64,000 bases of DNA from Theristus sp. LFF4_11 (Eukaryota; Nematoda; Chromadorea; Monhysterida; Xyalidae). This document shows positions 157 through 64,000 of the stretch, in pieces. The notes under the pieces were generated by a model. The model was not told where the DNA came from, ran no database searches, and saw only the letters and a list, made by a program, of their open reading frames with translations. The stretch's first letter is position 1. Each line of letters opens with the position of its first letter. Made by a program: the position numbers and the translations under genes. The stretch is taken from assembly GCA_030248135.1 (NCBI GenBank), contig JASANC010001886.1:62001-126000 (forward strand), given 5' to 3'.

Positions 157-23690
<23,534 letters not shown>

Positions 23691-42907: not shown

Positions 42908-43170
42908 TCAACCAACGGGAAATCGATCATTCGCTGGTGTTGTTGCGGTTACGCTCGCTCTGCGGCATTGTATCGGATGCGGATATGATGGCGTTTGCCA
43001 GCGACCACTGGGCATGCAGAATTCGACCAGGAACGGACGACGCTCCGGCATCAATTCGTACGCATCAGCGCACGTCACCTTCATCTGCGTGTTCGTCGGG
43101 AGGCGGCCGCGCGTTGCGGTCGCGTTATACGAAATTTGCATAGGCCACTCCGCTGCGCGTTTCGCACAGC
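42908..43170 (-). CDS. Gene B exon 10, sushi/CCP domain and C-terminus
   Basis: Four Cys at residues 761, 793, 811 and 828 with W817 (CMPSGRWQTPSYPHPIQC), N-x-T and G in the expected places: the sushi (CCP) signature of complement-type adhesion proteins. Begins after ctttttttag with two bases completing a codon, exactly the phase left by the 46,996 donor. Ends ...DRFPVG TGA. If not part of gene B it would be an orphan exon. Confidence 0.72.
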
Positions 43171-46100
43171 CTAAAAAAAGTTCAACGGCATTACACAAAT
43201 TGAGCGGGTGAAAAGTCTGAAAAGCCACACAAAAACGCGCTTCATCAAGTGCAAAATCGTTTCTTTTTCCTGATCTGTTTTCCGATCTGCAAACCTTTTT
43301 CCATTTTGAGTGTCTGTGCACTCCGCATGCGAACATTTTAAGGGGCATTCATGAAGCAGTATTTAGTGACCGAGTATTATCTTTATTATCTGAAAATGCG
43401 GGAGACGCATATAAAAGGAGGAATATGGCTTTGTGTAAGCAGTGACAGACTTGGCTCGACAACACTTTTCAAGTCTCTGATGTGGTACACACGGATACAA
43501 GTACATAATAGCTATATTTTTGCGCCGCGTTTGTTTTACTGAAAAGCGTAAAAACTTTAATTTTTTTAAATTGTCCTCTTCAGTTCAATCTAAAATCACA
43601 CCATGTGCGAAATTCTGTAAATTCTGTGCAAAAACAGAAAAATCAGAGATTGCAAAACATTGCTGCATGTAGCTTTATCGTTGTTACTAACGTACGCACC
43701 GCTGTGTACACACCAGAACCAGTGACAGAATGGTGTTGTCTGCCGTTGATTTTCACCCTTTTTACCAAACTCTTGTGGCAGGATAAACCGTCTGTCCCGT
43801 GAGTAATTGCCTTTGCCACAGATGGAAACCTTGCGTTCCGATATACCTCTGCGATACACTTTGTCCTGGGCAAAGCAGTGTCAGCGATCCAAAGTCTGAT
43901 CTGATGTTTTGCCCAGACCATAAGATCTGTCTGTGGTAAAACACCTTCGGTAGTTCTGCCTGGTGTCCGTCGCAGTGACGAGCCAGGGGACACCGCGGTA
44001 TGCGTCTACCTGGCGAAACCGCAAACAGCGAACATTATGTATTGATCGTTATTTTAGTGTTTTTAGTGGTCGCTAAATGCCCGAAATACCGCAAATGTGA
44101 AAGTTTCATTTGTCTACAAAGTACGAGGGTTGCCATGTGCAACCGAATTTAATGAATAAACGGCGCAAAAATATGGCTCTTATGTACTTGTATCCGTGTG
44201 TACCACATCAGAGACTTGAAAAGTGTTGTCGAGCCAAGTCTGTCACTGCTTACACAAAGCCATATTCCTCCTTTTATATGCGTCTCCCGCATTTTCAGAT
44301 AATATTCTGACTTTTACATGAGCCGCGAAGGTCGGACCAAATTCACAATTCGTTGGTCACACACATTCTTCTAAACCCCGGAGAACTCAGGTTTTTCATT
44401 TTTCGTTTTTGGGCCGATTTCGCCTATGCTATTTCCACGGCCGATTCGCCCGAAATCGTCACGGTTCAGTACCTAGAATTGCTCACATAAAAAAACTGAC
44501 CCAAAAGCCGTGATCGGCGCAATGAATTACCCTGGACAACACAATTTTCTTGTTTTTCATTTCTGGACCGATTTCGCCAATTTCCACGGCCGATTCGCCC
44601 GAAATCGTCACGATTCGGTATCTAGAATTGCTCACATAAAAAAACTAATCCAAAATCCGTGATCAGCGCATTGAATTACCCTGGAAAACACCGTTTTCTT
44701 GTTTTTCGTTTCTGGACCGATTTCGCCAATTCCACGGCCGATTCGCCCGAAATCGTCACTATTCAGCATTTAGAGTTGCTCACATAATAAAACTAAAAGC
44801 AAATTTGCGATCAGCGCATCGAAGAACCCCGCAATTCATTATTTTCTCATTTTTCCTTCATGGACCGATTTCGCCAAATTCCACGGCCGATTCGCCCGAA
44901 ATCGTCACGATTCAGCATCTAGAGTTGCTCACGTAAGAAAACTAATACAAAATACGTAATCAGCGCATTGAATTCCAACGGACTAGACAAGTTTCCTATT
45001 TTTTGTTTTTGGACCGATTTCGCCAATTTTCACGGCCGATTCGCCCGAAATCGTCACGATTCAGTATATAGAGTGCTCACATAAGAAAACTAATACAAAA
45101 TACGTAATCAGCGCATTGAATTACCCCGGACTACACCACTTTCTCATTTTGTGTTTTTGGACCGATTTCGCCAATTTCCACGGCCGATTCGCCCGAAATC
45201 GTCACGATTCAGTATGTCGAGTTGCTCACATAAGAAAACTAACCCGAAATCCGTGATCAGCGCATTGAATTACCCCGGAATACACCACTTTCTCATTTTT
45301 TGTTTTTGAACCGATTTCGCCAATTTCCACGGCCGATTTGCCCGAAATCGTCACGACTTTGGTTATTTAACAGCTATTCCTCAGATTTTTTTAAAAATAA
45401 AAGTCAAATTCAAACTCTCCGTTGTTGGTTACCCTTAGAAACTTTTTGATTTGTCAAATAACGGGTTGTTACACGCGCAGAAATCGCAAATACACGTCAA
45501 AATAAGCATTTTTCGTAATTTTGTACAAACAAGCTAAATTTTTAGCCTTGAGAAGCATCGGAGAAAAAAATGAATGCGAAATTTGAAAATCCCGAAGATT
45601 TTTACCCTAGAAAATGTTTTTCTCATAACAGTCAGAATTTTATTTATATCACTGAAACTGCGTACACATTTTATGACATGGTCGAAAAAAAGGGGTATAG
45701 AAGAATAAGAAACAGCGAATTCAGAATCGATGTTTTGCGCACACAGCGTGTGTAGAAGATCACCACGAAAAAATTTCTGGTGCACACAGTGTATCTGTGG
45801 ATTGTCTGCCTGTGTGCCGCAGAAAAAAATCTCAGCTCCTTTTATGTTCACAGAGCGAGGCAAAGTAAGTTAGGAATTTACGCGCGAGCGACTGACGGGC
45901 CATATTATGCCTGCATCCGCTGTCCGCTCCGGTCCGCTTCGCTCGCGAATGGGCATGATTATTAAACGTGACCCAATATGCGTTTGCACGCACAGATAGA
46001 GAAAATGTTTCATGGCTGCGCGGCAATTTGAAATCAGCGAAACTTAACGTGTTCTGACGGCAGATTTGTGCAAGAAATTGAGAAAAAAAAACAATTGGAA

Positions 46101-49100
46101 TTTTTTCTCATCACATAAATTTATTTTATTTCATATTCGAATTACGTCCAGGCGCGTTTTATTCAGGCGAATTACGAATTTTTTTTCAGCTGTGCGGCTT
46201 TTCCACACATCATTCAACATTACTCGGCCTCCTTCGTACGAAAATACATAGCACATAGCTATGTTTTCACGGGGGGGGGGTACAATTCCGGCCCGCTAAT
46301 TCCGGCCTGAAGAATTCCGGCCCGCTCATTCCGGCCCAAAGAATTCCGGCCCGAAGAATTCCGGCCCGGAGAATTCCGGCCCGGAGAATTTTCGCCAGCA
46401 CGAACAATATTAAACCACACGAAGTGATTTTGGTAATGAAATAATAAAATAAAAATATCGATGTTCACATGTTACAGTGTATTTTCAATGATGTTCGTCC
46501 TGTTTGCTTTTTTGGAAAGTGAAACCTTTTGGAAAAAAAGAAACTACAACTAAATTTTTAATTTTTTTTATCATGAACAGGATTTGTGACCCTTTTACCT
46601 TATCAAAAGGCTTGGCTTAGGATTAGGAACCTACAACAAGTCACTGCAAGCAAGTTCTAAACAAAAATAAAAAATCACTTTAAGAATTTATTTACCAAAA
46701 ATCACTTCGTGTGGTTTATTATTGTTCTTGCTGGCTAATTCTCCGGGCCGGAATTCTCCGGGCCGGAATTCTTCGGGCCGGAATTCTTCGGGCCGGAATG
46801 AGCGGGCCGGAATTCTACGGGCCGGAATTTCGCGGGCCGGAATAGTACACGAGCCTGTTTTCACACAGTTGCGTGTCACTAAATACTGCCTCATGAATGC
46901 AGCTTGACATTTTGAAGCGTAAACGGTCGTGTTTCTGACGTCTGTCTGTATGCGAGTGCGGGCATGTTAATCGTTCATGAAATGGGTGTTCTCACCGACG
47001 CCGCTGCTGCGTAATACGGCAACATGCGAACGCGCGTCAAATGCGCCGTCCGTTTTGATGTCACCGCCATAGAGAGTGCACGTGGACAGGGCACGATCGA
47101 TCCATGCGGCTGCAACACAGGACGGTGTGGCTGCGCACAGCTGCAACCGGTGTGCAATGTGTTTTTTAGCGGTGTGCATTCGTTTTTGACGGCAAAAAAC
47201 ACACGTGCGCAAAGCTGAAGCCAAAACCAAAGACATTTCACCCTGCAGCATGTCCGCTGATCAACGTTTTGTATCGGCGTGCCAACGCGATCACCGTTCT
47301 TCACCGTTGCAGCCGCGCTCCAGTTGCACGCGCGTTCATCGCTGTTGCATTGCTGATCAACGCCATTATTGTGATTTTCATTTGTCCACCAGCACTGCGA
47401 GTTTGGCACCAGATAGAAATCCCACTTCATATCGTCACCCGTAGTGCCTGGTGTGCCGAGAAAATTGTGTTTTTTTTAATCTGCACGATCGAACCTGTAC
47501 ACACACTGGGGTAAATGTTGCAATTGTGTCGATTTCGGTTGTTTTGTTTTATTGGAAACCGCTGTTTCCGAAAATTAGCAAGCGTTTCAAATTTTTGTTT
47601 GAATAAATTTTTTTCTGTTCAAATTCAAAATTCTGTTCCGAAATGGAACCAAATCACCAAAGAATTCGGAACAATTTCTTTCTTTGTTTGCTGGAAACAA
47701 GCTGGAAACAGAAAAACTGTGTGATGTGTTTTGCGGAAACAGTTTCTGAAAACACAGAGACTGAAGCTGAAAAGCGTGCCAATTTTGTGCCACCAACTTA
47801 GCGCTGTCAACTCGGGCATAAAGAAGCGTGTGTTATCGAACGTCGCCACTCCGCCGGCAAGCGACTTGAATCCGTAGCCGACTTGCAGCTGTTCGTTGAA
47901 GATGATGTTCTCATTGACGACCTCCTGCTGACGGTCGTCACTCGCGGCAGCATTCGACTTTGGCCACATTGAGACCGTCAAATACTGTGGTCGACCGTCA
48001 TCGTCTGTATCGTTGAGCTTTTTAAAGATGCGCGTTTCACCGTCGCACAGGTGTATGTAGGTGTATCTAATTTCGGACTTGTCGGGCAGATCAATTTTTG
48101 AGCAGAAATTCGTCGTTCGCGAGCAGCAAAACGCGAACAGTTCTGCGTGCTCGAGTGAATCGTCGATCGCCACTAAATCCGTAATCGATAACGCTGCGCT
48201 GCATCGACCGTAGTTCTGTGAGCGCCAGTGAAAGAGTTTCGTTCATCAACAGTTTGGCTTGAAGTTTTTTGTTCACTGCTTGAGAAATGTGTGGTGATTA
48301 TTCTGTTTTAGATTTTGCAACAGCACAAATTGGTTCGAGAACACTAAAATTTTGATGCACAGACAGCTTCAGAGCGTCACTTGCAATTTTAATTCAACGG
48401 TGCAAAATTCAACAAGTTCATGAGTTTGAATGAAAAGTGTATGAACGGAATCGGGACGAATCAATCTATGAAACGCGAGAAAGCACATTTGGCATGACCA
48501 GGAAGAGCCCGATCAACTGGCGTTTTTGTTTACTCGAAAAGAACATACATGTTGTTTGTGCAAATAGCTTGTGACCGTCCAGCGAGTTGTGGCATGTTTT
48601 GTTTCGTCAACACCCCCACTCATCGCTTTCTCAACCGACTCTCTATCTTTGCAGGAGTGTCTGTAAAACAATCTTTTATCCAAACATGCATTTCTGAGGA
48701 AACGCTTCTTGCAAACTCACATTTTTTCAAGTAGTTCGTGAATATTGTCTCTCCAATCAATGCCGTATTGCATGCTCTCCAGTGAACTCGACTTTGCAAG
48801 AATATCGGCTGCCCAGTCGACTCGATTGCGCTTCGTTATCTGAGAGATGCGATCAATAATTGGGCCCCACTACTCTGCGTGCTATTGTTCGCAGAATTAC
48901 GGAAAAGTCATTGGGTACACAAGCACACGCAGTCGTTGTTACCCGTTTCAGAGTTTCATCAACACCGTTTACGTCGCTCTTCTCTGCAGCGTGACAGACG
49001 CCAACCATTAGCCACAACTATAATTTTTAAAATGGCCATAATGCTGAAAAAAGCTTCAACAACAACAAAACGCTGTGAGCAAACACAGTCTTTACGAACA

Positions 49101-52100
49101 CTAGAAACTGTGTACAGCTTTTAAAACACAGTTTTCATTTTTACTGTTTGCAAATACTATTGAACGTGGTCTTTTCGAAGAATGTCAATTGAAATAAAAG
49201 ATCTGCAAAATTCCTGCACACACATTGTTGGTATGACTTTTAAAAAAAGCCACGGGACAGAACCTGTTTTACGTATCGCACAGCGTCGTTCCACAGGTTC
49301 GGATAGACTTCCGGAGGGACTTTTGAAAACGGCATCGGATAGTTGAATAGATGATCATAAAGGGAGCCCATCAGGGCACTTGGCTTCTTGACGACGCAGC
49401 GATGTTTGAGCGCATCGAGATCGCTAACGTGGTGCCCGTCGATGTAGTGCAACCAGTTGACAGCGTGCTGTTTTAGGGCATCAATCTTGAACAACAGGTC
49501 GCGAGTCACTTGTCCGATTTCATCAGCAAAGTCGGCAGAATCTAGTTCACGTCTGATCTCAGATTGCAGCGTCGTAAGCGCTCGTTTTTCAGCGTTCGCA
49601 AGTGCGACCGACGAGTCGTGCGTCAGTTCGTGTTCGTGTTCATCAGAGTTTGCGGCCAGCGCGTTGCCAGCGGCCAGAATCAGCAGCAGTTCGTTTGCGT
49701 TTGACGTTCGTTTCGCAATCCCTGCCAGCTTATCGGCGCTCTGTATTGAATATGCTAGTGCTACATGTTCCATGAAGTACAGCCTATCTCGCTAATATAT
49801 GCAACTAACTGATTGGTTAGCCAAAGCAATTCTCGGCGCTGATTGGTTGGTTATGAGCAATTCCCAGCCCTGACGTCATGTTGCATATATTTTTCAGATG
49901 GACTGTACACTGGGAAATAAAAAAAAACTCCTATGGGGCTTGAGATGGGTTGGGAAACAGTTCTTGTTTGCAAGTCCACGCACCAAAATCATACATTGTA
50001 AATGTCTCATAAAAGCTTCTGTTGTTGTGTATTTCCGAATATTTCATGATGTGATTCACGGAAACACTTTCGAAAATTTCAAAATGCTGAAAACATTTTG
50101 AAAAGCAGAGGCAGAGATACGTAGCTGAAACATATATGATCATGGTGCGTAGACGCGACTTGCATTTTGTAATAAAGTTTGCTGTTTGCGGTGTCGCCTG
50201 CCCGGTGCCCCCTGGCTCGGCAGTGGGATGGACACCAGGCAGAACTTCATAAGGTGTTTCACCACAGACAGATATGATATTATCTAAAAATGCGGGAGAC
50301 GCATATAAAAGGAGGAATATGGCTTTGTGTAAGCAGTGAAAGACTTGGCTTGACAACGCTTTTCAAGCCTCTGATGTGGTACACACGGATACAAGTACAC
50401 AATAGTAATATTTTTGTGCCGCGTTTGTTTTGCTGAAAAGCGAAAAAAAAACTTTAAAACTATTTTATAATTGTCCTCTCCAGTTTAGTCTGACATTCTC
50501 GAGCGAAATTCTGTAACTCTGTGCAAAAACACAACAATCAGAGACTGCGATTGCAAAACACTGCTGCGTGTAGCATTATCGTTGCTAACGTAGTGTACGC
50601 ACCGCTGTGTACACACCAGCACCAGTGACAAAAAGGTATTGTCTTTCGTTAATTTTCACCCTTTTTTACCAAACTCTTGTTGATTTGCGTGGGAGTATGA
50701 ATGTAGGCTAAACCGTCCGTCCCGTGAGCAAATTGCCTTTGCCACAGAAAGGGACATTGAGTAAACCAATGCCTCTGCGATACACTTTGTCCTGGGCAAA
50801 CCAGTGTCAGCGATCTAAAGTCTGATTGTTATTTCAGTGGTTTTAGCTTTAGTGGTCGCTCGCTAAATGCCCGAAATACCGCAAATGTGAAAGTTTCATT
50901 TGTCTACAATGTACGAGTACGAGGGTTGCCATGTGCAACCGAAATAATGAATAAACGGCGCAAAAATATGGCTCTTATGTACTTGTATCCGTGTGTACCA
51001 CATCAGAGGCTTGAAAAGCGTTGTCGAGCCAAGTCTTTCACTGCTTACACAAAGCCATATTCCTCCTTTTATATGCGTCTCCCGCATTTTTAGATAATAT
51101 TCTGACTTTTACATAAGCCCCGAAGGTCGGACCAAATTCACAATTCGTTGGGCACACATTCTTCTGAACTTTACATTCGGCAACAACACAGGTTTTTCAT
51201 GGGGCTGGGGTTGGGTTGGGGCAAAAAACTAATTATAATTTCAAAATCTATATATGAAATTACCCCAGGAAACATTTTTGGTCGGTTATGAGCCAATTTC
51301 AGACAAAAATTGAAAGGGCGACATTTGAAACCAGGCTAAAACTCCGAACATTTGAAAATGCCCAACGTTTTGCCCAAAAAGGGCCGGGGAAAAAGTAGTT
51401 GGATTTTCAAAATCTACGGATGAAATTACCCAGGAAACTGTTTTGTTCGGTTGTAAAACAACTTTAGACAAAAATTGCCCAATTTTTAACCCAAAAAGGG
51501 TCGGGGCAAAAAGTAACCGGATTTTCAAAATCTACGGATGAAATTACCTCAGGAAACTGTTTGTTTGATTATGAAACAATTTCAGACAAAAATTGAAAGG
51601 GCGACGTTTGTAACCAGGTCAAAACCTGCGAACTTTTGAAAATGCGCGATTTTTTGCCCAAAAAAGGTCGGAGCAAAAAAGTAATTGGATTTTTAAAATC
51701 TACGGATGAAACTACCATAGGAAACCATTTTGTTCGGTTATGAAACAACTTTAGACAAAAATTGCTCAATTTTTAACCCAAAAAGGTCGGGCAAAAAAGT
51801 AACCGGATTTTCAATATCTACAGCTGAAATTACCCGAGGAAACTTTTTTGTTCGGTTATGAAACAATTTCAGACAAAAATTGAAAGGGCGACATTTGAAA
51901 CTAGGTCAAAACCTCCGAACTTTTGAAAAGGCCCAATGTTTTACCCAAAAAAGTCGGGGCAAAAAAGTAATTGGATTTTTAAAATCTACGGATGAAATTA
52001 CCCAGGAAACTGTTTTGTTCGGTTGTAAAACAACTTTAGACAAAAATTGCTCAATTTTTTACCCAAAAAAGGTGGGGGCAAAAAAGTAATTGGATTTTTA

Positions 52101-55100
52101 AAATCTACAAATGAAATTACCCAGGAAAATGTTTTATTCGGTAGTAAAACAACTTTAGACAAAAATTGTCCAATTTTTAACCCAAAAAAGGTCGGGGCAA
52201 AAAGAAACCGGATTTTCAAAATCTACAGCTGAAATTACCCCAGGAAACTTTTTTTGTTCGGTTATGCCATAATTTTTAACCCAAAAAGGGTCGGGGCAAA
52301 AAAGTCGACATTTGAAACTAGGTCAAAACCTCCGAACTTTTGAAAATGACCAATTTTTACCCAAAAAAGGTCGGGGCAAAAAAGTAATTGGATTTTTAAA
52401 ATCTACGAATAAAATTACCCAGGAAACCATTTTGTTCGGTTATGAAACAACTTTAGACAAAAATTGCCCAACTTTTAACCCAAAAAGATCGGGACAAAAA
52501 AGTAACCGGATTTTCAATATTTACAGCTGAAATTACCCCAGGAAACTTATTTGTTCGGTTATGCCTAATTTTTAACCTTAAAAGGGTCGAAGCAAAAAAG
52601 TAATTGGATTTTTAAAATCTACAGCTGAAATTACCCCAGGAAATTTTTTTTGTTCGGTTATGAAACAGTTTCAGACAAAAATTGAAAGGGCGACATTTGA
52701 AACTAGGTCAAAACCTCCGAACTTTTGAAAATGCCCAATTTTTAACCCAAAAAAGATCGGGGCAAAAAAGTAATTGGATTTTTAAAATCTACGGATGAAA
52801 TTATCCAGGAAACTGTTTTGTTTGGTTGTAAAACAGCTTTAGACAAAAACTGCCCAAATATTTTTAACCCAAAAAAGGTCGGGGCAAAAAAGTAACCCGA
52901 TTTTCAATATCTACAGCTGAAATTACTCCAGGAAACTTTTTTGTTCGGTTATGCCCAATTTTTTACCCAAAAGGGTCGGGGCAAAAAAGTAACCGGATTT
53001 TCAAAATCTACAGCTGAAATTACCCCAGGAAACTTTTTTGTTCGGTTATGAAACAATTTCAGACAAAATTTGAAAGGGCGACAATTGAAACTAGGTCAAA
53101 ACCTCCGAACTTTTGAAAATGCCCAATTTTCTACCCAAAAAAGGTCGGGGCAAAAAAGTAATTGGATTTTCAAAATCTAGGGATGAAATTACCCAAGAAA
53201 ACCATTTTGTTCGATTATGAAAAAACTTTAGACAAAAATTGCCCAATTTTTTACCCAAAAAGGGTCGGGGCAAAAAAGTAACCGGATTTTCAATATCTAC
53301 AGCTGAAATTACCCCAGGAAACTTTTTTGTTCGGTTATGAAACAATTTCAGACAAAAATTGAAAGGGCGACATTTGAAACTAGGTCAAAACCTCCGAACT
53401 TTTGAAAATGCCCAATTTTTACCCAAAAAAGGTCGGGGCAAAAAAATAATTGGATTTTTAAAATCTACGGATGAAATTACCCAGGAAACTGTTTTGTTCA
53501 GTTGTAAAACAACTTTAGACAAAAATTGCCCAATTTTTTACCCAAAAAAGGTCGGGGCAAAAAAGTAACCCGATTTTCAATATCCACAGCTGAAATTACC
53601 CCAGGAAACTTTTTTGTTCGGTTATGAAACAATTTCAGACAAAAATTGAAAAGGCGACATTTGAAACTAGGTCAAAACCTTCGAACTTTTAAAAATGCCC
53701 AATTTTTTTACCCAAAAAAGGTCGGGGCAAAAAAAGTAATTGGATTTTTAAAATCTACGGATTAAATTACCCAAGAAAACCATTTTGTTCGATTACGAAA
53801 CACCTTTAGACAAAAATTGCCCAATTTTTAACCCCAAAAGGGTCGGGGCAAAAAAGTAACCGGATTTTTAAAATCTACAGCTGAAATTACCCCAGGAAAC
53901 TTTTTTGTTCGGTTATGAAACAATTTCAGACAAAAAATGAAAGGGCGACATTTGAAACTAGGTCAAAACCTCCGAACTTTTGAAAATGCCAGTTTTTTAC
54001 CCAAAAAAAGGTCGGGGCAAAAAAGTAATCGGATTTTCAAAATCTACGGATGAAATTACCCTAGGAAAGTATTTTATTCGGTTATGAAACCACTGTAGAC
54101 AAAAATGGAAAGGGCGAACACTTAAAACTGGTGAAAACCCTGCGAACTTTTAAAAATGCCCAATTTTTTACCCAAAAACAAGGTCTGGGTAAAAAATTAA
54201 CCCAATTTGCAAAATCTCCGGATGAAATTACCCCAGGAAACATTTTTGTTCGGCTATGAAAATGCCCCAGTTAAAAATTGAAAGTGCTAACACATCTTGA
54301 TGATATAGCTGAAAAAAAAGGAGAAACAAGAATAAGTAACCAAGATTTCAGAATAGGTTTTTCGTGTCTACAACGGACGTAAAGAAGTCTGATGGAATTT
54401 TCTCTTCGGCACAGTTAGCAACCACTGCAGGTCTCTTCGTGTGCACAGTAACAAGTTTCCAGCATGTATGTTCGTTGCTGTAGGACAACGCGTAAATTTT
54501 GAAAACCCGCGCAGATCCATGTCCAGCCATATAATGCGTGATGCGCTGTCCGCTCGCTTCGCTCGCTCGCGCATCCGCATGATAATTTTGAATAATTGGA
54601 TAATTGTTGCTTTTTAAAAGCAGTTGCAATTTGGGTAAGTTTTTACCGACCTTTACTGCAGTTATCTCAAGTTTCCCATTGATATCAGTCGTTACTTCGT
54701 CCAGAAATTGAAACGTCGCTGAAAATAGACTGTCCGTTTGACTCCGAAGACGTTTTAGCTCGTTCGAGATTTTGTTGAACGGATTAATGTTGCTGATGTC
54801 TTTGTTCAACAGTTGGTAGATGTCAGCATCGAATTGAATAACTTTCATTCGCATAATTAGCTGTGCCTCGAGTGCTTCTTTGATGTGGCTCATGATGTTG
54901 CCGTTGTTGTTTTGTGTTGCGCGTTTCTGTGTATTGTGTGAAGTAGCTGACAAAAGGTATTTATCGTCGGAGAAACGCATATTATTTTCAAATGCACGTG
55001 TATAGGCCACAGGGTTAAAGGGTTGGCAAAAAATGTAAGCTTTTTCAGTTAAAAAAAGTTAAAAATAAAAGTCTTTTGGGGGAAGCAAACAAAGATTTTG

Positions 55101-57922
55101 CAATTAACGCAGCCAAATTTTGGTTATTTTTAAAAACTGCATTTTCAGTAGTTTTTTGCGTTTTTATCAGTTTTTAACAAAAAATGTTTAACACAGCAAA
55201 TGGAGTCATTGACTCTACGTGGTTGCCCCGGTTTTCAATAACCGCGGACAAAACAATAACCAGCACACAAATGGTTTGGCATTGTAAGCAGGACAAAAAA
55301 AATAAAAATAAAAAATAAAACAAAAAATACCTGGTAGTGTTCGCGATTCCAGGCCGCACGTCGGCGACGATGGATGGCCGGCAACCGATTCCCATTTTGG
55401 TTTCCGTTGCGATTGAGCGGCACAAATTGGAAAATGTCCAAATTTTTTTCCGGCAAGCCGTCTGGGAACATTTTTTCGATGATCCTTTGGCAGTAATTTG
55501 TACACACCACGGTGCCATTGGCGGCGGGCAGCGCACGTTTTTCACGGTGGTGCTCGTTTTGTGGTGTTGCTGAGTTTAAAAAGGACATATCCATAATTTT
55601 TTGAATTTATTATTAGCGATTTCAGACACGTTTTCCGTTCAGAAACGACAAAAAAGGACATATCCATAATTTTTTGAATTTATTATTAGCGATTTCAGAC
55701 ACGTTTTCCGTTCAGAAACGACAAAAAAGGACATATCCATAATTTTTTGAATTTATTATTAGCGATTTCAGACACGTTTTCCGTTCAGAAACGACAAAAA
55801 AGGACATATCCATAATTTTTTGAATTTATTATTAGCGATTTCAGACACGTTTTCCGTTCAGAAACGACAATAACGAAGCTGTCAGCAACCCAAAATTGAC
55901 ACATACGTACCGGCACCAGCTGCGGTGAAAGTTAGCTGCAGAGTGTACGATGTAAGATCTTTCAAATCAGCAGTCAGTTGTTCACGCCTGTCGACCAGTC
56001 CCATCTTGTAGGCCAACTCGACCGCCCGCAGCTTTTCCTGAAGTGCGTTTGTGTTGGCACGCAAAACCGTGACCAAACTACAGTATGACATGTTCAATTG
56101 GACACACATCTTGCTTCAAATTTTTTAAACGTATGTCGCAATATGCATTTGCGCGCACAAGGAAAAAATATTTCACGGCTGCGCAGCAATTTGAAATCAC
56201 GAAAACTAAACGTATTCTGACGGCAGATTTTCCGAAAAAAAGAAAAAAGCGAATCAGTCTCTTTTTCATGCAGATGTTTTACATTTTTTCGGATGCCGTT
56301 CCGCCGCAAAACAGCGCGTTCGGTTTTTTAGCGGTGCGGTTTTTCCTCACTATACTTCGCCTCCTTCTAACTAAAAGGTAATAGCAGTATCATCCCTGAT
56401 GACACAAAACAGAGCTAAAGTGCATATAATTGGGCAGGTTTCAAAATGACAAAACCTGTCGTTGATTGAAGTAATCCTGTGTCGACAGTTCCACTTGTGC
56501 CATCTCATAGCGTGCCCAGTCGAGTTGCATCTTCTGCTGTTGATAATATTCGCGCAGCGCGTCAATGATGATTCGTGCTTCTTTTTCGTCACTCTCATTT
56601 GAGTTGACTGTTGTACGTGCGCCGAGTACACTAATGGCTGTTAGAACCTGTGTGTGTTTGTAACTATAATAACTTCACTCAGTGTTACTGTGAGATACGG
56701 TATGACCAATTAAACATGGCAGCATTTATCAAGGTGCAAAGGCGCGCGCGAAATTTGAATGAAAAAAGACGTTCAGAAATTCAATTGCATGTCAAATCTG
56801 CCGTGTTTTTTAAACTCATTGGTTCTTCGTGCTGTTCTGTTCATTCTTTGTTTTTTGCGCATATGATTTTAAAAAATCTTGGCATTTTTGAAAAAGACAA
56901 CTTCTAGTTTGCGAATGATTCCGCCTTGATTGAAAAGACCAGGACTGCCTTATTTTTTTCGGCCATACTGTAAGTATCGCAACACATGGACGTTTTTTGT
57001 CCCAAAGCGATTGTAAACGTTTTTCCACTTCAAGTTACACCGTTAGGTAAGTTTCCAATTCACTATTACATTTTACAGCTGTCCAATCAAATTCAAAACC
57101 TTGATTGGAATCGACTGATTTTTCTCTTATAGCAGAAAAGCGCAAAATTTTTCTGCACGTCATAAACGTTCAAAGCCCGACCGTCCGTACCGAATTACGG
57201 CCTTTCGCACGACACGTAGCTATGATCTTTTATTTTGGTCCCGCAACTCAATGCGCGCATAGATAGGTAAACAGTTTTATGGATGACGCGTGAATTCAAA
57301 ATTGGTAAAGTGATCCGAGTCCCCTACTTAGGTGACTTTGAATTGCCACATAAAGATTGAAACTACGGAATGGCCGAGCAAACATGGCAGCTTTTTTCAG
57401 GGTGCAAGGAGCGCGCGAAATTTGAATGAAAGAAAAAAGACCTTCAGACACCAAATTCTGTGTCTAATTTGACACGTTTTTTAAACTAATAGATTTTGTG
57501 TGATCAATCTTTCTCCGATTGCACACATGGTTAAGAATTATGTTGGCATTTTCGAAAAAAGACAACTCCCAGTCTGCGACTGATCCCCGCTGAAACTTGC
57601 GGAAACGCGTGCAAACAAAACTTTCAGTTTCCGAAAAAAAATTTTGCTTGAACATTTTATTTGCTCGGGAATTTTAAATTTCAAATATGAATCTGTCTCG
57701 ATCTTTTTTGGCAACATAACTCACTTCTAGTGGCGGTACCAATTGATGCTCATTGAAAACTGTTGTCACCATTGCCACACGTTGTTTATTGCGATGCACT
57801 GCAGATTTGTCAACGATGTTTAAAGCTGATGTTTCATGGAACAGTAATGTACTGCGAATCACTGCGGTCAACACCAAAATCACCAGGCTCTGTCTTCGCT
57901 CGTTGAATAGAGGCCACTTCAT
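42908..57922 (-). CDS. Gene B: unrecognised secreted protein with coiled coil, PAN/Apple-like and sushi domains, complete gene span
   Basis: Not recognised as a known family. Ten exons on the minus strand (57922-57725, 56647-56456, 56037-55911, 55569-55331, 54926-54651, 49740-49264, 48215-47798, 47447-47242, 47140-46996, 43170-42908) total 2,541 nt: 846 residues plus stop, all phases matching. Visible parts: signal peptide (hydrophobic 12-21), helical segment (67-172), RxKR site at 181-184 suggesting proprotein cleavage, coiled-coil-like helices (253-500), Cys-containing region (504-690), PAN/Apple-like core (about 690-731) and a sushi domain (761-828). Ignoring the last splice gives a 768-aa form stopping at 46,967. 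Gene C is its divergent paralogue. PAN and sushi domains suggest extracellular binding; the actual role is unknown. Introns 5 and 9 hold satellite-bearing units. Confidence 0.8.
43343..43375 (+). mobile_element. Single left arm of the palindromic mini-MITE
   Basis: GGCATTCATGAAGCAGTATT then TAGTGACCGA stops where composite copy 2 starts. The matching right arm (CACTAAATACTGCCTCATGA) is at 46,862-46,905, so 43.38-46.86 kb may have been inserted into one mini-MITE. Confidence 0.65.
43377..44309. mobile_element. TIR module, copy 2
   Basis: TATCTGAAAATGCGGGAGAC and its inverse bracket about 930 bp with the shared GTACACACGGATACAAGTAC block. The interior contains a palindromic stretch around CCTGGTGTCCGTCGCAGTGA. 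No transposase frame. Confidence 0.87.
44385..45360 (-). repeat. Satellite B array, about 6 copies, inverted
   Basis: ATTCGCCCGAAATCGTCACG recurs about every 150 bp. Reverse orientation to 18,718-20,030 and more diverged. Confidence 0.93.
46281..46848. mobile_element. TIR element with GGCCGGAATTC tandem repeats in its arms
   Basis: The left arm (46,281-46,440) holds seven AATTCCGGCCC-type units and ACACGAAGTGATTTTGGTA; the right arm (46,690-46,848) is the inverse with seven GGGCCGGAATTC units. The loop is about 250 bp. GTAC lies at both edges. Inside gene B intron 9. Confidence 0.85.
46862..46905 (-). mobile_element. Single right arm of the palindromic mini-MITE
   Basis: GTGTCACTAAATACTGCCTC then ATGAATGCAGC; partner arm at 43,343-43,375. 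Confidence 0.6.
46967..47140 (-). CDS. Gene B exon 9, PAN/Apple-like core, with two possible ends
   Basis: Reads LCAATPSCVAAAWIDRALST then CTLYGGDI, the C-x3-TP-x-C-x-A...C-x-LY pattern of PAN/Apple domains. A strong GTGAGA donor after 46,996 (phase 1) joins in frame to the sushi exon at 43,170. If unspliced, the frame ends at TAA, 46,967, giving ...GVGENTHFMND. Confidence 0.78.
   Translation of the reverse strand: MCAATPSCVAAAWIDRALSTCTLYGGDIKTDGAFDARSHVAVLRSSGVGENTHFMND
47242..47447 (-). CDS. Gene B exon 8, Cys-rich, leads into PAN domain
   Basis: Reads GDDMKWDFYLVPNSQCWWTN, GVDQQCNSDERACNWSAAAT and GTPIQNVDQRTCCR. Phase 1 in (after cacaccag), phase 0 out (GTGAAA). The final CC begins the PAN-like motif continued in exon 9. 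Confidence 0.78.
47798..48215 (-). CDS. Gene B exon 7, Cys-containing domain
   Basis: Reads NYGRCSAALSITDLVAIDDS, ELFAFCCSRTTNFCSKIDLP and RYTYIHLCDGETRIFKKLND, then NEQLQVGYGFKSLAGGVATF. Six Cys clustered in the first half suggest disulphides; no known domain recognised. The start after gctcacag and the donor GTTGGT (phase 1) are both set by phase. Confidence 0.75.
49264..49740 (-). CDS. Gene B exon 6, long helical exon
   Basis: 159 residues, mostly helical: ELLLILAAGNALAANSDEHE, ALTTLQSEIRRELDSADFAD, then VNWLHYIDGHHVSDLDALKH and CVVKKPSA, which corresponds to gene C THWINFLKHRDN...FVIKKCIIAEG. Phase 0 both ends; donor GTTCTG after ...RYVKQ. Confidence 0.82.
50279..51099. mobile_element. 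TIR module, copy 3
   Basis: TATCTAAAAATGCGGGAGAC at the left, complement at the right; long inverted arms with GTACACACGGATACAAGTAC. About 820 bp. No transposase. An adjacent inverted fragment (50,150-50,275) matches the interior of copy 2 near 43,890-44,030. Confidence 0.88.
51235..54280 (-). repeat. Satellite A array with a higher-order period of about 287 bp
   Basis: Inverted relative to 17,930-18,690. The block GAAAGGGCGACATTTGAAAC recurs at intervals of about 283-291 bp (51,318; 51,601; 51,888; 53,081; 53,367; 53,655; 53,946), with two longer spacings near 52,300-52,700. A full unit of about 170 bp alternates with a shortened unit of about 117 bp that lacks that block. Confidence 0.9.
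54651..54926 (-). CDS. Gene B exon 5, helical
   Basis: Reads FDADIYQLLNKDISNINPFN and KRLRSQTDSLFSATFQFLDE. Gene C exon 5 has VDREIYHTLENVYSKTEYTW and LHMEMAFKLSLLLSQM in register. The acceptor with phase 0 is acacag before AAACGC; an upstream tcag would not keep phase. Donor GTCGGT, as GTCAGC in gene C. Confidence 0.8.
55331..55569 (-). CDS. Gene B exon 4, with RxKR cleavage motif
   Basis: Reads ATPQNEHHREKRALPAANGT then VVCTNYCQRIIEKMFPDG. REKR at about residues 181-184 is a furin-type site; gene C has RVKR at the same place. Two Cys follow. Acceptor aaactcag; phase 1 in, phase 0 out (GTATTT). Confidence 0.82.
55580..55871. repeat. Four 73-bp tandem repeats making up gene B intron 3
   Basis: GGACATATCC begins at 55,583, 55,656, 55,729 and 55,802, an exact 73-bp period with essentially no sequence differences. 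They fill nearly all of the 341-bp intron. On the transcribed strand each unit holds GCTAATAATAAATTC, a possible branch-point sequence, so the duplication multiplied it. Confidence 0.95.
55911..56037 (-). CDS. Gene B exon 3
   Basis: Reads EKLRAVELAYKMGLVDRREQ and ends LKDLTSYTLQLTFTAAGAG. Gene C exon 3 ends LKRFTSYAVGLTPAGGTG with the same phase 1 donor. Helical, then a Gly/Ala turn. Confidence 0.85.
56456..56647 (-). CDS. Gene B exon 2
   Basis: 192 nt, identical in length to gene C exon 2. Reads VLTAISVLGARTTVNSNESD then EKEARIIIDALREYY; gene C has VLTAISVLGARLTNNSNESD. This is the strongest evidence of paralogy. Phase 0 both ends. Confidence 0.9.
56696..56972. mobile_element. MITE, ATTAAACATGGCAGC family
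   Basis: TACGGTATGACCAATTAAAC ... TTTTCGGCCATACTGTA, 277 bp, in gene B intron 1. Confidence 0.85.
57364..57590. mobile_element. MITE, ATTAAACATGGCAGC family, right end missing
   Basis: TACGGAATGGCCGAGCAAAC, then the usual body to CTGCGACTGATCCCCGC, where it breaks off. Preceded by a fragment (57,200-57,363) related to the 41,513 TIR element. Gene B intron 1. Confidence 0.75.
57725..57922 (-). CDS. Gene B exon 1, signal peptide
   Basis: Starts MKWPLFNERRQSLVILVLTA; basic then hydrophobic, a typical secretory signal. Ends ...HQLVPPLE in phase 0 at GTGAGT. Aligns along its length with gene C exon 1, sharing HET, S..RN..R..., and P.PE before the donor. Confidence 0.82.
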
Positions 57923-59728
57923 GGCGTCAGTTCAGGAAATGACTTTTTTTCGCTAATACAGGATGTCTGAAACACTACAATGAAAGCGTTTCGGTTTAGA
58001 GTTTGCTCAGGGAGTGTTGTCTGTAATTCGGAACGCAGTTCAAAAAGTGTTTGTTCGCCACTGATTGAGCTAAAAGTTTTTTGGAAAATTCAACCTGATT
58101 TGATGGACAGTGTTGAAAATGCAAGGTTCAAAATTGCAAGTGCAAGCAAAAAACCAATCTTTATATATGCATTTTCAGGAATGCTAATCGGGCGAAAAAA
58201 TTGGTCATTTTCATTCGTGTGACTTTACACGCAAATTTATGGGCATACGAATTATTCAGCGAGTAATTCTTGAACAAAGATGTGAACAACAATTATTTCA
58301 ACTTGCGATTGTTGGACGGGGGACCGACTCATTTCCGCACTAGTAAAACTGCTAAACATAGCAAAAACACATTTTTAGAGAGTGAGGAGCAAATGCCGTT
58401 CCGTAAATACATGTAACCGCTCTGAAACATGAGTTCGACGGTCATGCAAAAAAAAATAATCACGAAAAGTAAGAATGTCAGTCAAACGCCTTGAACGTAC
58501 ATATCTAACTTTTGAATTTATTTTTAACACCATAGTTTCACCAAAACCACCAAATAAGGCAATTGTATTTTCATCACTGATTAACCACACTCCATTGACT
58601 AAAATCTAAATGTGGGAACCGTGAAACTACAATGAATGCAATTCAGCATACCAACAGTTCCGTTTGATAAACGTTTTCTGGTATGACAAATATAACGAAA
58701 ACAGAAAGTATAAAAATAGAACATATGGCGTTGAACGAACAATGAAGAACATATTCCAAGCCTACGCAGTTTTATCGTTAGCTTAGTAAAACACTAAGTA
58801 ATCGTGCTTTTGTAATCGAGAATTTACAGATTGGCACATTCATAAAATAAATTCTTTTAGTAAGTCGAGAAAAACAGTTCGTTTACAGCTTTTGAAAGAC
58901 ACCATGACACAAAGGAAAATGAGTAACCTCACTTCTAGAGGCTGATTGGCTGTTCCGACTCATGTCTACTAGGTATATTAAAGCTGGTCTTTCCCTGAGA
59001 TGTTGTTATAAACTGGTTTTAAAATCTTATCGTTTATCAGTATACAATGGCGTGCACGTTTTGCGTTTGAAGTCAAGTGTTTTGTTCGACCAGTCTGACG
59101 GTTGGCGCTGTGCCCCGGCCCCCGCCATCCATCGTGTCCTTCGAAAGCCGGAGCACACGACACGTATGGTATGCACGATTAAACATGGCAGCTTTTTTCA
59201 GGGTGCAAGGTGCGCGCGATTTGAATGAAAGAAAAAGACGTTCAAAACCCGATTCTGTGTCAAATTTGACATGTTTCTTGAAATAAATTGGTTATTCGTG
59301 CTGTTCTGTTCATTCTTTATGCATTGCACACTCGATTGGCGAATATCTTGGCATTTTTTAGAAAGGCAACTCCTAGTCTACGACTAATCTCGCCTTGAAT
59401 GAGACTGCCTTATTTAATCGGCCATACTGTATAATCTCTCTGTATTACGACACTAATCTTGAGAATTTTACAGGTTTTGCATGTTTTTCTCAAACGTTCT
59501 CTGTAAAGAAACACGCGTGCTTTATGTAGCTTGAAGGGATCACCCGCGGTACTCGGCAGGTGCATGGCGCCTGTTGAATGAAAAGTCGTCATTTTTCATT
59601 TTTCACGTCCACGTCTACGTCACGTGACACACAGTGAAATGAAATGTTTTCTAATTCGTTCTGTTTTAGAGGCGTCCCGTTCAGCAAAGTAAACCGTCAT
59701 TTCATATCTTCCCCATTCTGACGCCACA
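57923..59728. promoter_or_regulatory. Shared upstream region of divergent genes B and C
   Basis: About 1.8 kb between the two start codons. No convincing gene; small open frames here look random. Holds one MITE (59,165-59,431). Promoters of both genes should lie here, but I see no reliable core elements. Whether it acts as a bidirectional promoter is inference. Confidence 0.45.
59165..59431. mobile_element. MITE, ATTAAACATGGCAGC family, in the B-C upstream region
   Basis: TATGGTATGCACGATTAAAC ... TTTAATCGGCCATACTGTA, 267 bp, about 300 bp upstream of the gene C start codon. Confidence 0.85.
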
Positions 59729-59917
59729 ATGTTGCCTCCGTCAAACAATTGGCGCCACGCTCTAATGCGGGCGTTGACCATGGTCGTTCTGTGCACCACA
59801 GCGATGCCTCACGAAACACCGCACCACATGGCTGAAATATCCGTTACGGAACGAAACAATAATCGCCTATCATCGGTGCTGTCCGTACTGAAAGAAGACT
59901 TACCTCCAATGCCTGAA
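59729..59917 (+). CDS. Gene C exon 1, signal peptide
   Basis: Starts MLPPSNNWRHALMRALTMVV then LCTTAMPHET; a secretory signal with probable cleavage after TTA. Ends DLPPMPE in phase 0 at GTAAGA. Aligns with gene B exon 1 (66 versus 63 codons). Confidence 0.82.
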
Positions 59918-62900
59918 GTAAGATGAAGCGTAAAAAGCTTGCAAAAGCTTGATCGACGAACAATGGCGCTGACAACAATAATTGATCAGCTGATTGACTG
60001 GTTGCGCTACACACGTGCAGTGTGACTGTGATGCATGCAATCTGTGCACGCATTGCCTCGGAGGCGGAGTCACTGCAATGCATGCATCACGAAATACGAA
60101 ACGTGTTCACCAACCAATTAATAAAAAAGCTAACTTTATTTTTTAGATGGACTGTAATTATCACCAATGATCTCAGTAAACCGCGAAACATGCAGGTTCT
60201 GACGGCGATCAGTGTGCTTGGTGCGCGATTGACAAACAACTCGAACGAAAGCGACGAAAAAGAACTGCACATCATCACCAATGCGTTACAAAACCACTAT
60301 AGACGCAAGAAGCTGAATGACGACTGGTTGCACGAAACGACACAAAGAGCTAGAGAGCTAATGTTGCAACATTCCAATCGCCGCAAGGTAATTTAATTTT
60401 ATGATGAATTTTTAATGTAGTTTTTAAAGCGAAGTTTTATTACTGTTATGCGCTGATTTTTAGGGGCTGCTGAAGAACTTCATGGCTGGACGGGACAGAA
60501 ACTGGAACACTCTAGACAATGAACGCAACGAACTCAAGCGCTTCACATCTTACGCTGTTGGTTTGACACCGGCTGGTGGCACTGGTATATAAACTATGTT
60601 TTTGAAAGTACCTATATACAGGGTGATCCAAAAAAACTACACGATAAAGAATCGGCTCTAGCTCGCCGTCGGCTAGATCGTTTGGACTGAAATTTTAACC
60701 AAGCATTACACAAAGCTTTTATTTTGTGTGTTAAAATTTCAGACGAATTGGTCAACCCTGTAATGAATGCAAAATGAAATAGTGAAAACGTAAAAAATTG
60801 ACTTTTTGCGCCAAATACAGCACGGTGCGCCTAGTGCACGTCCACCACTCACTCAGCGCTCAAGGAGATGTTTCAGCTTTCTGCTATGAATACCGTATTA
60901 CCTCTATTAACCCCCCCCCCCCAAATTAACCCCCCCCCCCAAAAATAAACTCCCACCCCCTCGACAAGTTTCCAAATAATCCCCCCAAAAATAAACCCCC
61001 ATGGGGTTTATTAGAAACCTGTTTGAAACACATACCTAGCAAATTCAGTGGCTGAATGCAGTGACATTGGTGAAATTGTGCTACCAAAGGCCCCAAAGGG
61101 ATGAGTTAGTGGTAATTTCATTACAAAAGGCTGTTACAAAAGGAAATCTCTGTGAAAAGTAGAAGTTTCTGCGACTTTCTTGCCTGCCATGCAAGGTATT
61201 TTTGCCATTTTTCAACAAACCCCCACCCCTAGCATTTGTTTGTAAATCAACCCCCAAAAATAACCCCCCCCCCCAAAATAAACCCCCACCACAGAAGTCG
61301 CTGAAGAAATAAACCCCCATTATTAGAGGTAATACGGTATTTGCTTTTTTCATAAAGAACAACACAGAACGCCTGCTTTCAGTTGTCCAATCCATTTTTT
61401 CACAAAATGTAGCAAAAAGAGAAAAAACTCGGAGGCTTGGCTGCTGCAACAAAAAACAGTGATTTCAGAGAAAAACGTGCCAGCAAATATATCAAAAACG
61501 ATTCCTGCGTTGTTACTTTTGAAAAAAAGCAAAAAGTCATAGCAGAAAGCTGAAACATCTCCTTGAGTGCTGAGTGGTGGACGTGCGTTAGGCGCACCGT
61601 GCTGTATCTGGCGCAAAAAGTCAATTTTTTACGTTTTTACTATTTCATTTCGAATTCATTACAGAGTTGTCCAATTCGTCTGAAATTTCAACACACAAAA
61701 TAAAAAGTTTTTTGTGATGCTTGGTTAAAATTTCAGACCAAACTATCCATCCGTTGGCGAGCTACAGCCGATTCTTATCGTGTAGTTTTTTTTGGATCAC
61801 CCTGTACATAGAATACAGAGTCCACGAAACATTGAACTACAGAAGAATGAACCGAACCGAATGGTTTGATCGGAATCAAAAATCCAATTTATGAAAAAAA
61901 TATATCTTTTTTCAATCCCTGTTCTGTTCTTACTTTTCGCGAGCTCTGTTACGGTATATACTCAAAAGATATATTGTTTAAGGAAACATACCGTATCAGA
62001 CACTAAACTCAGACGAATAATGCTGAGTGATTCAGACGCAGACGTTCGTTCGTGCTGATGCAGATGCAATTATTTATCAGTGTAGATTTTGTCAAAGTAA
62101 ACATTTTTTGCTCAAATTATTCTTGTTAACAAAAAAAAATTGATCTGCATACCGTATTACCTCTATTAAACCCCCCCCCCCCAAAATTACCCCCCCCCCC
62201 AAAAATAAACCCCCACCCCCTCGACAAGTTTCCAAATAATCCCCCACCCAAAAATAATCCCCATCCCCCATGGGGGATTATTGAAACCTGTTTGGAACAC
62301 ATACCCAGCGAATTCAGTGGCTGGTTGCCGTGAAAATGATGAAATTGTGCTACCAAAGGCCCCAAATGGATGAGTTAATGGTAATTTCATTACAAAAGGC
62401 TGTTGTAAAAGGAAATTTCTATGTAGAGTAGAAGTTTCTGCGACTTCCTTCCTGCCATGGAAGGTATTTTTGCCATTTTGCCCACTCCTAAAAATGGTTT
62501 CCAAATAAACCCCCCCCAAAATAAAGCCCCCCCCCCAAAAAAAATAAACCCCCACCCCCAGAAGTCGCTGAAGAAATAAACCCCCATGGGGGTTTATTAG
62601 AGGTAATACGGTATGTGTCAAAATTTGCATTGGTTTGTGCATCTACATCAATCAGTGCACAAACATTCGTATCTCAGTCTACATTCTTTTTGCGCGTGCA
62701 GCTCGGCTGGGCGAACGTCGCCGTGTGAAACGTTACGCAGCATTTCGACTTGCAGATGAAGTGAACCAATTAAGAAATGTGCTGATCAGACTTCTTCAAT
62801 GCCAGGTGCATAAATTATTTTTAATTTGAATTTCAGACATTTTTTGACATGCATTCAACGAGTCCAAACGCTTCTGCCGTTTTTATGGGGAACTGATTCA

Positions 62901-64000
62901 CTTGAAAATTTCTTGTCTTTTATCTGTTCAAGCTTTTTTCAGTACAACGGAATGACGTACAAAATGAATCAAATTTACGCACTGCAAGAAAAGTCCCTGC
63001 AAGTCGACCGGGAGATCTACCATACCTTAGAAAATGTGTATAGTAAGACAGAATACACATGGAAGAGAATGGATGATGTGTCCTCGCAAGTGAATCGCCT
63101 GCACATGGAAATGGCTTTCAAACTCAGTTTGCTTCTTTCCCAAATGCGCTGGGATGAAAAACAAAACGAACGAAGGCTTCAAATTTTGTCATCAAAGGTC
63201 AGCATTTCACATATCACGTGTTCAGCTTTTTTTACAGTCGTTGGTTTCTAAATACGAACGGACGCACGGTACTGTACAGGCATGTATACGTACACTGTAG
63301 TTGCCGCGGTCGCCGTTACCGTCCAAATTGTTGCGACTCGATTTTTTGAAACGCCGAAACCTCCATGAAACGGAAAACCGCGAGCGTACCGAAACCGCCA
63401 GTCTCATTTTTCAGAAAACCGCGCACCACCGCCATTTGCACTCGTTGCACTTTGCGTGCACAAAAAACGGGTTCCTATTCCTAAAGTTGACACTCGTTTG
63501 CGCCAGTGATAAGCCATCCCGCAATTGCATCTTTTCAGACTGTCAGTGAACTGTCAGAAGAAATCAAAAGCGCTTCCAACGAAACCAATCATCTGATTCG
63601 GACTATGTTTGCGAAAATGAGTGAAAACGCGGACAAACATCAACGAGAGACGGTAGATGCGATCAAGCACGCGACGAAAACACTCCTGGATGGACAACAA
63701 CACGCGTTAGAGGAGTTGCAACAGCAATTGAAGCAAAATACTGCTGCGCTGCAACACCAACTAAACCACAATACAACTGCGTTGCAACAGCAATTGAATG
63801 ATAATACAACGGCGCTGAGACAGCAAATGGATCAGAATACAAAGGCGATTCAGTGGTACTCTGCGCATCAAGCTGAACAAACCAAACTGAACCACGAAGT
63901 TCTACTGCACGAAACCCATTGGATAAATTTCCTCAAGCATCGCGACAACAAAACTAAGACGTTTGTAATTAAGAAATGTATAATAGCCGAGGGTAGGAGC
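59729..64000 (+). CDS. Gene C: paralogue of gene B, secreted coiled-coil protein, 3' partial
   Basis: Six exons are visible (59729-59917, 60196-60387, 60464-60584, 62702-62805, 62943-63197, 63539-64000+), 441 codons, truncated by the window. Exon phases (0,0,1,0,0) equal those of gene B. Features: signal peptide (hydrophobic about 11-25), VLTAISVLGAR exon, RVKR site at residues 175-178, a helical exon aligned to gene B exon 5, and a long coiled coil with four 11-residue repeats at 350-393 that gene B lacks. By homology the missing part should carry Cys-rich, PAN and sushi regions. The family is not recognised. Intron 3 contains a mariner-like element with a nested MITE and another MITE. Confidence 0.82.
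59979..60150. mobile_element. MITE, CAGCTGATTGG family, in gene C intron 1
   Basis: TTGATCAGCTGATTGACTGG, GATGCATGCAATCTGTGCAC, and inverse blocks ending CACCAACCAATTAATAAA. Fills most of the 278-bp intron. Confidence 0.78.
60196..60387 (+). CDS. Gene C exon 2
   Basis: Reads VLTAISVLGARLTNNSNESD then EKELHIITNALQNHY. Same length, phase and opening 11 residues as gene B exon 2. Starts after acatgcag; an open frame continues upstream but phase and homology select this start. Confidence 0.9.
60464..60584 (+). CDS. Gene C exon 3
   Basis: Reads LLKNFMAGRDRNWNTLDNER, ending LKRFTSYAVGLTPAGGT(G). Starts after tgatttttag in phase 0; phase 1 donor GTATAT, as gene B exon 3. Confidence 0.85.
60617..61806. 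mobile_element. Tc1/mariner-like TIR element, non-autonomous, with nested MITE
   Basis: TACAGGGTGATCCAAAAAAA ... TTTTTTGGATCACCCTGTA, TA at both ends, inverted arms of about 160 bp. A MITE (60,891-61,339) is inserted inside. No transposase residues seen. In gene C intron 3, starting 32 bp after the exon 3 donor. Confidence 0.85.
60891..61339. mobile_element. MITE, TACCGTATTACCTCT family, nested
   Basis: TACCGTATTACCTCTATTAA ... TTAGAGGTAATACGGTA. Splits the left arm of the mariner-like element, so it is younger. Confidence 0.87.
62150..62613. mobile_element. MITE, TACCGTATTACCTCT family
   Basis: Full copy, 464 bp, closely similar to the 21,128 copy in both sequence and orientation; ends about 90 bp before the acceptor of gene C exon 4. 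Confidence 0.88.
62702..62805 (+). CDS. Gene C exon 4, with RVKR cleavage motif
   Basis: Reads ARLGERRRVKRYAAFRLADE then VNQLRNVLIRLLQCQ. RVKR at residues 175-178 parallels REKR in gene B exon 4. Shorter than its counterpart (35 versus 80 codons) and lacks the B insert with CTNYC. Phase 1 in, 0 out. Confidence 0.82.
62943..63197 (+). CDS. Gene C exon 5, helical
   Basis: Reads YNGMTYKMNQIYALQEKSLQ and DREIYHTLENVYSKTEYTWK, heptad-like, aligned with gene B exon 5. Phase 0 both ends; donor GTCAGC. Confidence 0.85.
63539..64000 (+). CDS. Gene C exon 6, hendecad coiled coil, continues past window
   Basis: Open to the window edge. Contains four 11-residue repeats (QLKQNTAALQH, QLNHNTTALQQ, QLNDNTTALRQ, QMDQNTKAIQW) encoded by 33-bp units at 63,725-63,856, a pattern that favours right-handed coiled coils. 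Downstream HETHWINFLKHRDN...KKCIIAEG matches gene B exon 6 near its middle. Gene B lacks the hendecads. Confidence 0.85.

Follow-up and report, generated by a model that had tools for sequence, protein, structure and literature searches.

The 64,000-nucleotide stretch of the nematode Theristus sp. LFF4_11 analysed here (the window; bases 62001-126000 of the 169-kb contig C1216 in a 159-Mb assembly) holds two divergent genes, B on the minus strand and C on the plus strand, and comparison of the predicted proteins establishes that they are homologous, with their exons in the same order. We read the pair as an old inverted tandem duplicate encoding a secreted protein that would be cut at an RxKR site and form a coiled-coil oligomer with a cysteine- and tryptophan-rich head, and put the probability of this reading at roughly 0.55. 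In our models gene B runs over ten exons from 57922 down to 42908; the clean frame claimed for it in the original prediction is indeed free of stops, though it comes to 871 residues here rather than 846 codons. Gene C has 11 exons, also stop-free, which start at 59729, continue past the window edge and encode 764 residues. Exons 7-11 of C lie beyond the window, at window coordinates 66462-70022 (C1216:128462-132022), and the interval first proposed for the pair, 42908..64000, cuts gene C short. The start codons of the two head-to-head genes are 1.8 kb apart. The features are the following:

B exon 1, 57725..57922, minus strand: start codon and hydrophobic N-terminus (putative signal peptide); resembles C exon 1
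B exon 2, 56456..56647, minus strand: 192 nt, first residues VLTAISVLGAR
B exon 3, 55911..56109, minus strand: 5' boundary less certain
B exon 4, 55331..55569, minus strand: REKR and RRRR, putative convertase sites; 8 bases from a 73-bp tandem repeat
B exon 5, 54651..54926, minus strand: coiled-coil-like
B exon 6, 49264..49740, minus strand: coiled-coil-like
B exon 7, 48721..48839, minus strand: homologous to C exon 7
B exon 8, 47798..48198, minus strand: first part of the conserved Cys/Trp-rich module; weak donor GTTGGT
B exon 9, 47242..47447, minus strand: second part of the module (CWWTNE...CC)
B putative exon 10, 42908..43216, minus strand: one sushi-like domain, diverged, and the stop codon; two possible acceptors, 43216 in phase 0 and 43172 in phase 1; putatively linked to B
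C exon 1, 59729..59917, plus strand: start codon, N-terminus modestly hydrophobic
C exon 2, 60196..60387, plus strand: 192 nt, first residues VLTAISVLGAR
C exon 3, 60464..60584, plus strand: homologous to B exon 3
C exon 4, 62702..62805, plus strand: RVKR, putative convertase site
C exon 5, 62943..63197, plus strand: coiled-coil-like
C exon 6, 63539..64000 and on to 64123 outside the window, plus strand: coiled-coil-like; the next two bases are GG, not GT
Interval between the B and C start codons, 57923..59728, no strand: possible shared promoter region

The paralogy of the two genes, as originally predicted, is borne out by whole-protein comparison: the local alignment score (BLOSUM62) of B against C is 708, while the best of 200 shuffles reached 65. 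Identity is 33% across 699 aligned codons, and the C-terminal exons of C match those of B at 44-56%. We also compared nine same-order exon pairs one by one, with 1000 shuffles each, and seven of the nine stand out. The observed score was reached by none of the 1000 shuffles for exons 1, 2 and 7, for B exon 8 against C exons 9 and 10 together, and for B exon 9 against C exon 11; by one for exon 6; and by four for exon 3. In a matrix of all exons against all, the same-order partner was the best one for six of nine B exons; exons 3 and 5 of B scored higher with C exon 6 than with their own partners (41 vs 33 and 39 vs 35), and B exon 4 higher with C exon 9 than with C exon 4 (26 vs 18). Gene C has two extra introns relative to B around the position of B exon 8, and a hidden counterpart of C exon 8 in B was unsupported (748/1000 shuffles).

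The exon of identical length that had drawn attention to the pair is present as described, 192 nt opening with VLTAISVLGAR in both genes (B 56647-56456, minus strand; C 60196-60387, plus strand). In the window the degenerate coding pattern of its first seven residues occurs twice, against a mean of 0.00 over 100 shuffles, and that of its first ten residues is found at only two places in the whole genome, both of them exon 2 of these genes. Exon phases, also claimed to match, do agree in the models at the eight pairable junctions and at the donor after B exon 9 and C exon 11. Since splice sites were picked with B and C viewed together, and several boundaries are choices, this agreement is consistent with homology and is not independent evidence for it.

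The duplication is old. Over the C-terminal module (174 aligned codons, 87 identical residues) synonymous divergence (dS) is 1.46 and nonsynonymous divergence (dN) 0.37, a dN/dS of about 0.25. With dS near 1.5 and dN well below it, we conclude that the copies separated long ago and that purifying selection has acted in at least one line, a two-sequence test being unable to tell which copy is constrained. Exon 7 (33 codons) gives dS 2.3 and dN 0.55, and in exon 2 (44 aligned codons) synonymous sites are saturated, with proportions of synonymous and nonsynonymous differences (pS and pN) of 0.76 and 0.22. Long DNA matches between the B and C sides sit in repetitive DNA, mostly satellite-like arrays to judge by their positions, and the exons give only short ones; the pair is not a recent segmental copy.

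The order of parts in the two predicted proteins suggests how they might work. The N-terminus of B is clearly hydrophobic (mean 1.64 over 19 residues), and the signal-peptide exons, predicted to be related, are so by the exon 1 comparison above. An RxKR sequence follows early in exon 4 of each gene, REKR at residue 205 of B and RVKR at residue 175 of C, their positions in the exon differing by one residue. The earlier claim that these sites occupy the same relative place rests on exon order, because exon 4 otherwise has no alignable similarity; B also carries RRRR at residue 264, a further basic site with no counterpart in C. The predicted coiled coil was supported by a test of our own for heptad periodicity, with 500 shuffles per region: over exons 5-6 no shuffle reached the periodicity of C (residues 202-481), and the earlier exons lack it (B 67-205, 238/500 shuffles; C 64-175, 53/500). 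A module of about 150 residues rich in cysteine and tryptophan occupies exons 8-9 of B and 9-11 of C, with the pattern CCSRxTNFC ... ETRIFKKLND ... VSMWPKS ... CWWTNE ... CC, and in the alignment its cysteines are common to both proteins. The six N-glycosylation patterns in B and ten in C fit an extracellular protein, though such patterns easily arise by chance.

The function we infer is read from this architecture only. Both products would enter the secretory pathway, and a furin-like convertase would cut at the RxKR site after an N-terminal part of about 175-205 residues. The long heptad-rich middle encoded by exons 5-6 would oligomerise the product and so display several copies of the disulphide-stabilised head, which would bind an extracellular partner. 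Such a stalk-plus-head secreted oligomer could be a matrix, cuticle, gland or immune-recognition protein.

Secreted oligomers built on this plan include multimerins/EMILINs, angiopoietins and olfactomedins, some of which undergo proprotein processing. B and C resemble them in the order of putative signal peptide, predicted coiled coil and C-terminal cysteine-bearing head, a likeness of plan only, and differ in that no C1q, fibrinogen, EMI or olfactomedin match was obtained by Pfam in the B and C pieces scanned (C exons 1-4 and 7-9 lay outside the scan). A literature search on the likeness found nothing. The frame of C exon 6 does match Apolipoprotein A1/A4/E (PF01442), at E 1e-5 and 25.8 bits, far below the 90-bit cut-off; we judge a weak match of this kind to be expected of amphipathic helical repeats.

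As predicted, B and C belong to no family that we could recognise. No Pfam family, whether PAN, C1q, fibrinogen, lectin or any other domain, exceeded its cut-off in the pieces scanned. The PAN domain invoked by the original prediction gave no match there to E 1 or E 10, and no result indicates the C-terminal lectin module it had proposed. Among 5.8 billion proteins, neither the whole of B nor a profile of the B and C C-termini had a match at E <= 10 (7990 and 1684 scored candidates, respectively). This search depends on exact shared 5-residue words, of which at most 100 are used, so distant relatives can be missed. Against PDB sequences, B exons 7-10 retrieved only four parvalbumin entries at E 1.5-2, and a B/C profile spanning the module and the exon 7 region none at E <= 10. 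An EF-hand reading of the DxDxDG-like loop in the parvalbumin-matching stretch was rejected at these E values, the third Asp being Gln in C. The module profile gave 71 pattern matches in prokaryotic genomes, of which none was confirmed; the C module had no match in phages; and a literature search covering titles and the openings of abstracts held nothing recognised as this family.

Nor is the supposed expansion of the family supported, since only two genes were found genome-wide. Four protein queries, whose counts are lower bounds, revealed no third copy in the 159-Mb genome. All five genome matches of the B N-terminal query and all five of the module query lie on C1216. The C query gave 16, one of them elsewhere (contig C43, E 5.3), and the B C-terminal query 12, five of them elsewhere. 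Matches on C779, C665 and C2186 (E 3-4.2) cover only the exon 6 part of the latter query; C3108 (E 0.98) was rejected as a paralogue on its unrelated translation, and C3261 carries sushi repeats.

B and C might instead belong to a known nematode secreted or matrix family that has diverged past recognition by word search and Pfam, which we regard as unlikely. The two proteins are themselves far diverged, at 33% identity, the search is limited by its reliance on words, and the structure is poorly predicted, all of which would suit such an origin. Yet the module keeps ETRIFKKLND, VSMWPKS and CWWTNE, stretches likely to be present in an ordinary relative as well, and nothing was returned at E <= 10 from the same collection in which a control query, the BRAP gene of the window, retrieved 3305 proteins, with nematodes among the 120 listed. 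We judge B and C to be a real, taxon-restricted family of two genes with an undescribed module. The module may represent an extracellular domain not described before, folded in a way of its own or as a known domain in hiding, carried on a processed coiled-coil stalk and confined to a little-sampled nematode lineage; in our view this has an even chance of being right.

Gene B may in addition contribute one sushi domain, a domain named in the original prediction, through its putative exon 10. The exon frame shows the four-cysteine sushi pattern, with a tryptophan ahead of the last cysteine, and scores 14.2-14.3 bits (E 0.056-0.061) against PF00084, below the Pfam gathering cut-off of 20.7; HRM (PF02793) scores it equally (14.0-14.3 bits, E 0.055-0.068), and a polymerase domain about as well. 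The B C-terminal query matched C3261:17226-17420 (E 0.02), within six sushi-like open frames, and two of the frames there that were scanned reach 37.7 and 37.9 bits against PF00084. Exon 10 aligns to a sushi repeat of this row (L014) with 32% identity over 62 columns (pairwise E 3e-11), across the first three cysteines and the tryptophan, and because it matches this row it can be read as a diverged sushi domain; a good repeat of the row also yields a weak HRM match. Compared with sushi/CCP proteins, it is alike in the cysteine pattern and this identity, and unlike in being single, C-terminal, under the cut-off, equally scored by HRM and present only beside B. The six frames on C3261, several almost identical and spaced at about 258 bp, look like a recent exon duplication.

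Whether the domain belongs to B is less secure, and we hold it a serious possibility, somewhat short of even odds, that the exon is part of another minus-strand gene and that B ends soon after exon 9. A 4-kb gap holding repeats lies ahead of exon 10, and the acceptor with the better pyrimidine tract, tttag/GCTGTG at 43172, is in phase 1, as is the sushi exon on C3261; the end of B exon 9 is in phase 0. Downstream of C, as far as the contig end, no convincing sushi-like copy was found (best E 0.5), and weak sushi-like minus-strand matches occur farther left, at 23949-23884 (E 0.36) and 12279-12229 (E 0.74). The acceptor at 43216, however, is in phase 0 and gives an open frame to the stop, and the only recognised left neighbour, BRAP, is on the opposite strand.

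Several points weigh against the reading of B and C as a secreted, processed coiled-coil pair. All models of both genes derive from genomic sequence alone, and the splice link between the sushi-like exon and B depends on the choice of one acceptor. Signal peptide and cleavage sites were judged by eye and by pattern, and the N-terminus of C is modestly hydrophobic (0.99). The heptad signal of B over exons 5-6 (residues 277-527) is modest, being reached by 20 of 500 shuffles, and B-C similarity is not significant for exon 4 (778/1000 shuffles) or exon 5 (60/1000). Structure prediction, run on single exons, returned models of low confidence, with a mean predicted local distance difference test (pLDDT) of 43.5 for exon 8 and 37.8 for exon 10; as these models are poor, we make no claim on the fold of the head. 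A fold search with the exon 8 model gave 162 matches at E <= 10 and none at E <= 0.001. Finally, C exon 6 ends in CAG/GG where B exon 6 has CAG/GT.

This last difference could mean that C is a decaying copy, short of a splice donor and possibly of a sushi exon that it once had, with B as the working gene. We think this improbable. The missing GT and the lack of a convincing sushi-like exon downstream of C would agree with decay, but the C model is stop-free over 764 residues and 11 exons, its frame is kept from exon 7 onward, and dN is well below dS in the module. The GG fits a non-canonical (non-GT) donor or an assembly error as well as donor loss, and these cannot be told apart; use of another donor would explain it equally well.

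On the left, the neighbour of B is a BRAP (BRCA1-associated protein) gene, whose scattered exons span about 28.1-41.4 kb on the plus strand and include a zf-UBP domain by Pfam. Farther left are a phosphatidylinositol 3/4-kinase exon (17137-17514, plus strand; PF00454, E 2e-13) and a 571-residue open frame (9296-11008, minus strand) with a reverse transcriptase match (PF00078, E 4e-35), probably from a long interspersed nuclear element (LINE)-like element. Arrays of a 148-149 bp unit lie in the last intron of B (44392-45356), at 18721-19965 and, beyond the window, at about 74.1-75.8 kb; DNA matching these arrays is found downstream of C. In intron 5 of B a 287-bp unit is repeated about ten times (51213-54106). 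A 73-bp unit occurs in four exact copies (55578-55870), which lie 8 bases upstream of exon 4 of B and are probably recent, being 100% alike.

The BRAP gene also places the contig among nematodes. In a tree of 31 rows, comprising a query joined from window exons and 30 of the 120 listed proteins, the window BRAP falls in a ten-row clade with eight named nematodes and one further protein (support 100/99). This clade adjoins Plectus together with ascarids and filariae (95/91), and Trichinella, on a long branch, lies outside. As a tree of one gene with long branches, it places the sequence well inside Nematoda and poorly within it. Exons of TTR-52, a mostly nematode family, gave eight above-cut-off matches in the genome; none of the 14 controls gave a match, a result of little weight. 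SL1, sought as a nematode marker, was found neither in the genome nor in any control genome, COX1 was not found although 8 of 14 controls were positive, and CUB_2 was not found either, with silent controls.

Deep nematode lineages are thinly sampled (PMC6567515), and their taxon-restricted secreted proteins are little described for that reason. Such proteins are a common kind, and what could set B and C apart is the head module. Should the module prove to be a known domain in disguise, the gene pair would be ordinary; should it be a new extracellular domain, it would add to the matrix or recognition repertoire. A head-to-head pair under purifying selection offers a clean start for tracing the family in sister species and for solving its head module.

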